Shown: one piece after another, positions 17,108 through 20,027 of the stretch
Layout: the number at the start of each line of letters is the position of its first letter
How positions within the stretch are numbered: the first letter of the stretch is position 1
Source: Microscillaceae bacterium
GTDB taxonomy: Bacteria; Bacteroidota; Bacteroidia; Cytophagales; Microscillaceae
Reading direction: 5' to 3'
Assembly: GCA_011390205.1 (NCBI GenBank)
Contig: JAABSX010000024.1
Coordinates: 1-58,922, forward strand
DNA length: 58,922 nucleotides
Notes under the pieces: model-generated
Told to the model about the DNA's origin: nothing
What the model saw: the letters and a program-made list of their open reading frames with translations, nothing else
The model's database searches: none
Translations under genes and position numbers: made by a program

Positions 17108-17734
17108 TTAGAGTAAATTTTCATACAACACGAAGCTCCCAAAACCCATGCAAAGCAAAGCCGAGAGTAGTGTAAGGGCTGTTTTGAGACGTACATCAAG
17201 AGAGAGTGTCTTAGAAAAAGGCATACTAAACAGGCTAGAAGCTACCAACATCCCCAGTACCGAACCTAGCCCAAAAATTAGTAAATACACAATACTTGAT
17301 ACAGGTTCTTTGATTTCGGTCATCACTAGCAAAACCATCGCCCCGCTTCCTGCTAGTCCATGCACCAAACCCACTCCGTAGGCTAGGTGATGCTTGTGGC
17401 TATGGTCTATAATATGGCTATGCTGATGGTTTTGCTGAAATTGGGTTACTTTATACAAGCGATGTGCCCCCAACACTATCAGCATCACACCTACCAGTGC
17501 CTCTAGATATCCAAAATTACCTTCTAAGAAAGTAACCTTGCCCAGAATAATGACAATTCCGATGAGTAAAATGGTAGAAGTATGCCCCAAGCCCCAAAAC
17601 ACTCCATCTTTGAGGGCTAACACTGTTTTTTCTCGCTTCGTAACCAAGGCACTAATGGCTACTAAATGGTCGCCCTCGAAGGCGTGTGTAAATCCTAAAA
17701 AGCCTGCAAAGGCAAGTAATGTAAGTATTTCCAT
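17108..17734 (-). CDS. Nickel/cobalt transporter-like membrane protein (UreH/NicO type)
   Basis: A 208-aa protein with about six membrane helices. The first helix carries H17-x4-D22-H23 (HAFEGDH), the HX4DH metal-selectivity signature of Ni/Co permeases. A cytoplasmic loop is histidine-rich (NHQHSHIIDHSHKHH, about residues 101-115). GVGLVHGLAGSGAM is a second conserved glycine/histidine helix. It lies 17 bp behind the NHL gene at the end of the hydrogenase run, so supplying nickel for the active site is the natural inference. The direction of transport (uptake or export) cannot be proved from sequence. Confidence 0.85.
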   Translation of the reverse strand: MEILTLLAFAGFLGFTHAFEGDHLVAISALVTKREKTVLALKDGVFWGLGHTSTILLIGIVIILGKVTFLEGNFGYLEALVGVMLIVLGAHRLYKVTQFQQNHQHSHIIDHSHKHHLAYGVGLVHGLAGSGAMVLLVMTEIKEPVSSIVYLLIFGLGSVLGMLVASSLFSMPFSKTLSLDVRLKTALTLLSALLCMGFGSFVLYENLL

Positions 17735-17751
17735 CTCTTTTTTATATTATT

Positions 17752-18819
17752 TTATTTTTTCTTAGTCAAAATTACTCTGTGATTTCCTGTATCAGCAATG
17801 GCAATTACTTCATTTTCAATAGAAATCGAGAAGGGCCAATACAGTGTTTCTTCTGTACTTGTTTTGGTATCGGCATTTTCACTGCCCGTAATAAAATCAG
17901 GTTTTCCCAATACTTTTTGGGCTGGCATCCCTGAGTGCTGCGGTATTTTATCAAAACCCAACAAACGGCTGTTGCCTGTATCAACTACCCAAATGCCCTC
18001 TTTATCAAAACAAGTATCATAGCACCAGCTCAAAGTATGTGCATCGGGGAATGGTAAAAATTGATTCTGCCCATTGCTGTCAAAATCATTTTGCCCTATG
18101 ATACAATCTGCATTTTTTGCAAGGGCATCTCGCCAATTATTCCAAAGCAAAACTCTGTAATATTGTGTGTCTGTGATAGCCATTTGGCCCGTGCTACTGA
18201 CTTTGACCGAGTAAGGCCACAAGGCGTGTTGTGGGTCATAATCCCTTGATTCAAAATCAGGTTGCCCGATTACCTTATCGGCGGCTATAAAATTTTCTGT
18301 GGGGATATTTTCATAATACAATACCCTTCTATTGCCTGTATCTGCTATCCAGAGTTGCTTACCATCTGAAAACACTCCATAGCACCAATACAAACTTTGG
18401 GCACTAGGAGGCTGCGAAAGCCCTTTTACGTTGGGTTCATTGCTGTTAAAATCGGGTTGTCCTAGCACTACATCTGCAGCTTGTCCGTTTTGGGTGGGCA
18501 AACTATGCCAAATCAGGACTCTATGGTTCCAAGCATCAGCCACGATGAGCTTTTGCCCATCAGACCATATTCCCGAAGGATATTGCAAAGTAGAAGCATT
18601 GACTTTTGCCCCTGCATTTCGGCTGATTTGCAAAGAATCTGCTTGCCCTAGCACTACATCGGGGCTTTGATAAGGGCTTGTAGGAATGTTTTTCCAGATA
18701 AAGACCCTATTTTGCCCTGTATCCGACACAAATAAATGCCCTTTAGCAAGCCAAATACCACGAGGCGCAAGCAAGTTTTTATCTTTACTTCCTTTGAAAA
18801 TGATGGATTGTTCTATCAA
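17752..18819 (-). CDS. NHL-repeat beta-propeller protein in the hydrogenase locus
   Basis: A 355-aa protein with about six NHL-type blades. A recurring pattern of VVLGQPDF/VIGQPDF alternates with IADTGNHRVLIW/VSDTGQNRVFIW, and is often followed by YPSGIWSDGQKLIVADA. There is no signal peptide, so it is probably cytoplasmic. The start is a TTG at 18819; upstream in-frame codons contain no ATG and reach a stop at 18880-18882, inside the inserted repeat element. After removal of that element and its duplicated target, hypE and this gene would be about 27 bp apart, so it was once tightly coupled to hypE. A role in H2 metabolism is inferred from position only. Confidence 0.75.
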   Translation of the reverse strand: MIEQSIIFKGSKDKNLLAPRGIWLAKGHLFVSDTGQNRVFIWKNIPTSPYQSPDVVLGQADSLQISRNAGAKVNASTLQYPSGIWSDGQKLIVADAWNHRVLIWHSLPTQNGQAADVVLGQPDFNSNEPNVKGLSQPPSAQSLYWCYGVFSDGKQLWIADTGNRRVLYYENIPTENFIAADKVIGQPDFESRDYDPQHALWPYSVKVSSTGQMAITDTQYYRVLLWNNWRDALAKNADCIIGQNDFDSNGQNQFLPFPDAHTLSWCYDTCFDKEGIWVVDTGNSRLLGFDKIPQHSGMPAQKVLGKPDFITGSENADTKTSTEETLYWPFSISIENEVIAIADTGNHRVILTKKK

Positions 18820-18827
18820 AATTTCTA

Positions 18828-18964
18828 CTTTTATTGGTTCTCTGACAATTTTTGTGGAAGCAGCATTGTAAAACGGACTTTAGTCTGTTTGAGGAGCTAA
18901 GGCGGCAGGCTAAAGCCCGCCGTTACAGATTTACCACAAAAATTGTCAGAGAATCCTTTTATTG
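18828..18964. mobile_element. MITE-like element with 20-bp perfect inverted ends and 9-bp target duplication
   Basis: The left end TTCTCTGACAATTTTTG plus TGG (18838-18857) is exactly repeated in inverse at 18934-18953. Just outside lie direct copies of CTTTTATTG at 18828-18836 and 18956-18964, as expected for a target duplication. The 119-bp body (18837-18955) encodes nothing and holds an inner palindrome (GGCGGCAGGC with GCCCGCC). The ends differ by one base at the junction. This is the pattern of a small non-autonomous transposon mobilised by an IS elsewhere. It separates hypE from the NHL gene and may affect read-through. Confidence 0.75.
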
Positions 18965-18974
18965 ATTATCACCT

Positions 18975-20027
18975 TCAACAAATTCTTGGTAGTTGCTCAC
19001 CAGGTAAAAGGCTTACGACTCTTCTGCCGCCTATGCCACTTGTGAGTACTACTTTTTTGGGGTGTGCTTCTACCACTTCACCCACGATGGCAGCCGCTTG
19101 GCTTCCTGCCTGAGTTTGCAGTAAATCTACACATTTATCAGCAATTTCTGGAGCTACAAATGCCACAAAAACGCCTTCGTTGGCTACATACAATGGGTCT
19201 AAGCCCAAGATTTCGCATGCCCCAGCTACTTGCTCCTCTAGCGGAATTTTGGCTTGAGAAATCTCTATGCCTAATGCCGTAAATTGTGCAATTTCATTCA
19301 GAACACTTGCTAAACCGCCTCTAGTGGCATCTCTCAAAAGATGGATATCTTCCCCAAAACGCTCTATTAAAGTCTTGACAATACCATTCAAGGCACGGCT
19401 ATCACTCTCGATTTCACTCTCAAAACTAAGCCCCTCACGCAGCGACATAATCGCAATGCCATGGGCTGCTATGGAGTTGCTAATGATGATTTTATCGCCT
19501 TTTTTGATGTTTTTTGTGCTGATATTGGCATTTTGTGGCACAGTGCCTATGCCTGTAGTGTTGATGAATATTTTATCACCTTTGCCTTTTTCCACTACTT
19601 TGGTATCGCCTGTAATGACTTGCACACCTGCCTCTTCACAAGCTACTTTGATGCTCAGAAGAATCTCCCAAAAATCATTCATGGGCAAGCCCTCTTCTAT
19701 GATAAAAGACAAGGAAAGGTATTTGGGAATTGCGCCACACATGGCGAGGTCGTTTACTGTGCCATGCACGGCAAGGCTGCCGATATTTCCACCTGGGAAA
19801 AAGATAGGTGAAATCACAAAGCTATCCGTACTAAAAGCCATTTTGCCCTCAAGGGAAAAAACAGCCCCATCGTGCTGGGTATCAAGTAAATCATTTTTAA
19901 GTACATCAAAAACACCACTTTCTAAAAGCTGATGTGTGAGCAATCCGCCGCTTCCGTGCCCTAGAGTGATTACATCAAAATCCATTTTGGGCAAAGGGCA
20001 TTGCAACTGCATGCTGAGTTTAGTCAT
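18975..20027 (-). CDS. hypE: Hydrogenase cyanide-ligand maturation protein HypE
   Basis: Dehydrates the HypF-made carbamoyl group on its C-terminal cysteine to cyanide for the Fe(CN)2CO centre. At 350 aa it is complete. [13 protein letters not shown] begins the ATP-binding AIRS-type fold, with [16 protein letters not shown] and [11 protein letters not shown] following, and [16 protein letters not shown] in the second domain. The protein ends PRIC, giving the essential C-terminal cysteine. It overlaps the hypD end by 8 bp, so the two are translationally coupled. Long antisense frames here are not coding. Confidence 0.97.

Follow-up and report, generated by a model that had tools for sequence, protein, structure and literature searches.

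Both MITEs of the ISL3 type and REP dimers within a palindrome have been published before, and what is unusual in the element described here is its two-in-one build. In Microcystis aeruginosa PCC 7806, a 187-nt ISL3-type MITE is flanked by 8-nt direct repeats (PMC11448079), and 8 bp is the target duplication length given both for the ISL3 element of Microcystis (PMC11448079) and for ISPpu12a (PMC4133298). Like the Microcystis MITE, the present element is short and multi-copy, has ends in common with an ISL3 IS and is bordered by 8-nt repeats; unlike it, with its 9-nt imperfect ends (GGCTCTTCG) and no REP doublet described in the sections of that paper available to us, it has 22-bp ends and a two-hairpin body (PMC11448079). 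GTAG-tagged REP dimers inside longer palindromes are known from Anabaena variabilis (GTAG-15) and also from Halothiobacillus neapolitanus (PMC3733652). Here, as in GTAG-15, a REP-like dimer is nested in an outer inverted repeat, and the two hairpins, with their feet outward, correspond to the head-head REP dimer of that paper; section 7 of the same source, as far as it is available, neither calls the outer palindrome a transposon end nor gives a duplication, whereas here there is an ISL3-type end with an 8-bp duplication. As in the REPINs that accompany RAYTs (PMC3116915), an inverted REP doublet forms a hairpin and, in one relative, a RAYT stands with a repeat array; unlike REPINs as covered in the available part of that paper, many copies here also lie between the ends of a DDE transposon and are flanked by a duplication. 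TIMEs (Tn3-derived miniature elements) are likewise non-autonomous mosaics thought to be moved in trans, but have Tn3 ends, 5/6-bp duplications and, in the portion of the source at hand, no described REP cargo (PMC4133298). Our literature search, incomplete in its coverage, found no description of REP doublets between ISL3 ends.

The whole stretch of DNA analysed here (hereafter the window) comprises 58,922 nt from a Microscillaceae bacterium; G, C and L numbers denote genomes, contigs and loci, G000 being the genome of the window. A non-autonomous transposon of 120 bp occupies positions 18836-18955 (Table 1). A preliminary description had proposed a MITE-like insertion with exact 20-bp inverted ends, and this was borne out by the 22-bp ends, the target duplication and the presence of further copies in the genome. 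The 20-bp inverted repeat pairs without mismatch (18838-18857 with 18934-18953, 76-nt spacer), and the ends in fact extend to 22 bp with 21 of 22 positions paired (GGTTCTC... and ...GAGAATC), so that the element falls within the usual bounds of MITEs (<300 bp, 15-30 bp terminal inverted repeats, non-coding). Scanning the window for the 20-bp end with up to three mismatches returned just these two matches, against 0.02 expected from shuffles. None of the listed ORFs of at least 80 aa overlaps the element, a terminator scan gave no terminator-like site or tail, a promoter scan gave nothing useful, and the single Rfam match (mir-153, E 0.15) lies far under the gathering score. The single-strand DNA fold of the element has a z of -7.2.

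Table 1 Features of the element and of the adjoining genes in the window.
Feature	Position	Strand	Remarks
Left target duplication copy, CTTTTATT	18828..18835	.	8 bp; length set by flank agreement in paired units
Left terminal inverted repeat, GGTTCTCTGACAATTTTTGTGG	18836..18857	+	22 bp; inverted-repeat search, copy alignment
REP-like hairpin 1, GTAAAACGGACTTTAGTCTGTTT	18868..18890	+	GTA-footed; like hairpins without ends at C102, C22
REP-like hairpin 2, GTAACGGCGGGCTTTAGCCTGCC	18904..18926	-	Inverted; like hairpin without ends at C6
Right terminal inverted repeat, GATTCTCTGACAATTTTTGTGG	18934..18955	-	22 bp; inverted-repeat search, copy alignment
Right target duplication copy, CTTTTATT	18956..18963	.	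8 bp; length set by flank agreement in paired units
hypE	18975..20027	-	Directly upstream in transcription direction; TIGR02124 439.5 bits, cut-off 251.6
NHL-repeat protein gene	17752..18819	-	Directly downstream; TTG start as listed; PF01436 64.5 bits, cut-off 20
Membrane-protein gene	17108..17734	-	Next after NHL gene; marginal PF13386 DsbD_2, 25.8 bits, cut-off 24.9

A 9-bp duplication had been proposed, and nine matching bases are literally present on both sides (CTTTTATTG at 18828-18836 and 18956-18964), but the duplication is 8 bp (CTTTTATT, identical at 8/8 positions) and the ninth base is a chance match, since the element begins with a G and the host base that follows the right copy of the duplication is a G too. 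The length was set on 95 units, one per distinct context, in which paired ends lie less than 700 bp apart, cores have at most 3 mismatches in 16 and the unit stands more than 30 bp from a contig end, a sample that places the own-genome copies at C34, C30, C113 and C7 outside it. With the outer boundary at GGTT, the flanks match at 7 or more of 8 positions in 49/95 units. At length 8 a mean of 69.3/95 units agree per position, compared with 40.8 when flanks are shuffled between units, while length 9 gives 45.1 against 39.2; lengths 6, 7, 9, 10 and 11 rise only 1 to 7 above the shuffled controls, and as many of the 95 units come from three genomes they are not independent. A duplication of 8 bp rather than 9 fits the ISL3 family. 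Unit lengths range from 70 to 244 bp in 94 of the 95 cases, with one of 614 bp, and extra internal inverted repeats were seen in longer units of 193-614 bp (L157 2893-3506, L206 2159-2388, L229 1552-1782 and L187 160-352), which are possibly insertions into MITEs.

With the 137-bp element and its flanks as query, the genome of the window gave 41 matches at E <= 10, the best six of which cover most of the element at 70-100% identity; the search of 57 genomes with the element gave 14 matches in this genome at E <= 0.01, both arms counted. The proposed genome search for the 20-bp ends located 23 places with up to three mismatches, against 3 in the reversed control. Eleven own copies, namely that of the window and ten diverged ones elsewhere, were aligned with hand-set boundaries that are poor for some copies; in this alignment the window copy departs from the majority consensus at 12/120 positions, the fewest of all, while the others are 14-57% off and the nearest sibling is just 82% identical. 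The insertion had been called probably recent, which holds only relative to its siblings: judged from these divergences, the window copy is the best preserved member of an old family, not part of a fresh burst. The family now looks inactive in this genome, where the copies have diverged and a search of the assembly found no ISL3 transposase bearing these ends.

Beyond this genome, matches to the element at E <= 0.01 came from 11 of 57 genomes, the own one included, and reading of the loci placed the ends in eight of them (G000, G002, G006, G007, G011, G013, G030 and G049); the loci fetched from G004, G014 and G028 are body-only or chance matches to the element query. A near-exact scan of genome contigs for the end, with one free base, gave at least 119 stretches; among the 119 matches listed, 91 come from three WN_Cytophagales MAGs (JAAFJK 43, JAAFJS 30, JAAFIN 18) and 10 from a Flexibacter MAG, the others including Lewinella, Rudanella, Arcicella and an Ignavibacteriae MAG. 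A scan of IMG/VR turned up a lone stretch (L233) that has one end-like match. The conserved part of the family is the end, and the bodies vary between and within genomes. At L079 (G007:C160, 1425-1712) four end matches are nested in the order + + - -, in what appears to be a MITE inside an older MITE copy. Three G013 contigs (L055, L066 and L075) all stop about 95 bp inside an end and have the same body, which suggests a multi-copy element that was not assembled.

The mobiliser is probably an ISL3-family transposase. None was found in the window, in agreement with the preliminary description, but the suggested search for an IS with the same termini was productive in other genomes, where contigs that stop just inside an end often have coding sequence at that edge. 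On the JAAFJK contig L206, which seems to be the same as G002:C287 (L238), the C-terminal 156 residues of an ISL3 transposase (PF01610, 109 bits, cut-off 23) are directly followed by an exact 22-bp end; in JAAFJS (L213) a near-identical stretch of 156 residues (99% in G141) likewise adjoins an exact end. On G014:C54, 336 residues of an ISL3 transposase (NF033550, 255 bits against an NCBIfam cut-off of 180) are adjoined by an end with two mismatches. A 115-aa remnant at L228 had no Pfam match and was excluded from the ISL3 evidence, and the IS ends of the Flexibacter MAG (PFKD) were read by eye only. Six 5'-end contigs of JAAFJS were compared with ten 3'-end contigs (nine from JAAFJS/G141 and one from JAAFJK, L206), and the outer 8-mers agree perfectly in 3/60 combinations (ATAAAGGT, GAAAGTTT and ATTTAATT), compared with 1/60 at 7/8 or better in a wrong-strand control, suggesting that the ISL3 IS itself makes 8-bp duplications. 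No complete IS with both ends on one contig occurs in the loci examined, the ends lying on separate contigs. What the sequences show for the transposase and the 22-bp ends is co-location.

Among the eight genomes with ends, an ISL3 gene stands by an end only in G002, in G030 (an end with five mismatches just beyond the stop of the gene) and in G049 (gene decayed), and G006, G007, G011 and G013 gave no ISL3 match whatsoever. Viewed from the transposase, ten genomes have ISL3 matches, and ends with up to 4 mismatches of 22 accompany them only in G002 (0), G014 (2) and G049 (3); five-mismatch ends in G018 and G033 were taken as chance, and the ISL3 loci of G000, G019, G024 and G046 have no end under six mismatches, nor does the second ISL3 match of G002 (L246) have an end. 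With the L206 protein as query at E <= 1e-10, 13 of 390 genomes in the order gave matches and the own genome no further ISL3; its one ISL3 gene (C62, L234) was rejected as a partner, being split over two overlapping frames and bounded by different ends (CTAAGATTTATACGG, by eye).

The element has the structure of a MITE, an 8-bp duplication, ends in common with ISL3 transposase genes and a body of two hairpins. The latter form an inverted pair with both GTA feet outward, and the foot is GTAA, not GTAG, in both. GTAG feet do occur elsewhere in the own genome, in hairpin 1 of the copy at C83, in hairpin 2 of that at C58 and in the free hairpins at C102, C22 and C6. These three are the free hairpins of the window type, all single and without ISL3 ends, and no free doublet of this type was seen. 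The one open RAYT of this genome (C47, L049) is flanked by other palindromes of the CCAGTCTTCAGACTGG type, as read by eye, which apparently represent a REP family of their own, different from the MITE body; as a source of the hairpins this RAYT was not supported. Because the own RAYT is not flanked by the body repeat, we call the window body REP-like and not a REPIN; the REP reading is drawn from its architecture, the feet being GTAA and the RAYT having other palindromes.

A direct link to RAYTs comes from a relative, G007, in which a gene for a REP-associated tyrosine transposase (C325; NF047646, 83.2 bits, cut-off 80) is followed by an array of GTAGCACACACTTTTAGTGTGTG, the GTAG-footed hairpin that forms the body of the MITEs of this genome, so that, at the level of sequence, MITE body and RAYT-linked repeat are identical. 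GTAGCACACACTTTTAGTGTGTG has 102 matches in G007 (0 in the control), and the 30 loci fetched from these contain 21 distinct sites. With ends counted up to 4 mismatches, ISL3 ends stand on both sides of 13 of these sites (in 11 cases with no more than one mismatch in either end), 5 sites have a single or a weak end, and the remaining 3 lack ends. A looser threshold (5 mismatches in 16) gives chance ends, for instance at L077, which has none by eye, and was not relied on. The partner hairpins are 38-39 bp apart in two free doublets, compared with 50-54 bp in ISL3-flanked ones in which both hairpins were recognised. Another doublet, GTACCAACGGGCTTTAGCCTGTTG, stands free in G007 (at L338, and also at L333, where the contig ends soon after) and in G014 (L077), and ISL3-flanked in G002 at L052, at L063 (one slightly decayed end) and at L078 (shortened doublet). 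The identity of GTAGCACACACTTTTAGTGTGTG with the repeat of the RAYT, together with the occurrence of GTACCAACGGGCTTTAGCCTGTTG both free and ISL3-flanked, indicates that a body can move as a module and is more than mere MITE sequence.

On this evidence, the window element (18836-18955) is most likely an ISL3 MITE with REPIN-like cargo that was transposed by ISL3. ISL3 ends would have come to flank a REP doublet (REPIN), either by entry of the REPIN into an ISL3 MITE or by placement of the ends round the REPIN, and the captured doublet would then have spread as a chimera by ISL3 transposition. An ISL3-family DDE transposase, since lost or unassembled, would have recognised the 22-bp ends in trans and moved the window copy to its site in the narrow space that separates hypE from the NHL gene, duplicating 8 bp (CTTTTATT).

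It is rather unlikely, though the best of the alternatives, that the element is a plain ISL3 MITE which arose by internal deletion and whose hairpins are ordinary body evolved in place, unrelated to REPs. This would agree with the failure of 87/95 units in a strict doublet test, and with L221, which by eye starts out like the L228 end and then diverges from it in the manner of a deletion derivative. The automatic classifier behind that test is unreliable for long nested hairpins, and filed the window copy as 'one hairpin'; the full GTA..TAC doublets that it recognised (8/95, all of the G007 type) compare with 0.8/95 in shuffled bodies. GTA feet are missing from the hairpin bodies of many units, such as those of the 120-bp JAAFJS type. 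Ordinary body evolved in place is at odds with the G007 body being the repeat arrayed beside a RAYT, with one doublet that has ISL3 ends in one genome and none in two others, and with the single window-type hairpins that stand without ends in the own genome.

The element lies inside a hydrogenase-maturation gene cluster, and its reported placement at the 5' side of the NHL gene was confirmed, between the end of hypE (18975) and the listed NHL start (18819), an interval that shrinks to a short gap once the element and one duplication are subtracted. The statement that it splits the hyp operon is accurate only in part, since the hyp genes themselves are unbroken and it is hypE that is parted from the NHL and membrane-protein genes. 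For the host, the insertion means that hypE and the NHL gene have a 120-bp hairpin between them, which can, from the predicted fold, form strongly in the transcript; an effect on NHL expression is conjecture. The NHL gene matched 8 of 57 genomes at E <= 0.001, the own one included, with high scores in four relatives (G001, G008, G009 and G024) and weaker ones in the remaining three. None of these four loci contains the element ends at up to three mismatches, and the NHL gene directly follows hypE in G008, G009 and G024, with one gene intervening in G001; none of the relatives compared is of the same genus, and the exact empty allele is not among them. The NHL orthologue of G009 (C194, L084) lies in two frames with the break near query residue 271, owing to either a sequencing error or a pseudogene.

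These loci also bear on the reading of the element as a long-fixed hairpin retained because it regulates the hyp-NHL transcript, for instance as a site of RNase III action or of transcript stabilisation, which we regard as very improbable. The sense RNA fold of -50.9 kcal/mol (z -8.9) would suit such a role, but any inverted repeat would give such a fold, and three relatives have hypE and the NHL gene adjacent without the element, the 8-bp duplication is perfect and other copies are scattered in the genome. The sole copy with an identical arrangement in distant relatives, named in the preliminary description as grounds for an old hairpin, is not what was seen: the element is multi-copy and the relatives lack it.

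Slightly less probable still is that the outer repeat is a palindrome that received REP doublets from RAYTs, as for Anabaena variabilis and Halothiobacillus, and not a transposon end. The nested geometry is the same as in the available section 7 of PMC3733652; against this, 8-bp duplications of host flanks lie outside the outer repeat, and ISL3 transposase genes, as well as many bodies that are not REPs, are bordered by the same repeat.

More broadly, it is conceivable, and put forward tentatively, that in the Cytophagales ISL3 ends repeatedly took up different RAYT-dependent REP doublets, giving miniature elements that would have had two possible routes of spread, by the DDE enzyme for the whole and by the RAYT for the core, and that REP dimers in other palindromes are REPINs riding on DDE MITEs. 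If true, an unrelated DDE transposon would be copying REP doublets, for which a resident RAYT is thought to be required, and this could explain REPs that outlive or outspread their RAYT as well as REP dimers within palindromes.

In G011, an IS982-like transposase gene fragment with PF13612 adjoins an exact end at C365 (L065), and its role as the mobiliser, of practically negligible probability, was rejected, as another copy of the gene (L110) has no end and both genes are bounded by AACGTGAGTTCGGAATTAAAA, by eye, which in L065 lies inside the end; this marks an independent IS with ends of its own beside the end of a MITE. The repeat of the G011 RAYT was found between ISL3 ends in 0 of 6 cases, which speaks against the cargo reading, and the RAYT gene itself (C160, L282) is preceded by five GTAGCACACCCTTTCTAGGGTGTG-type hairpins and followed by one inverted.
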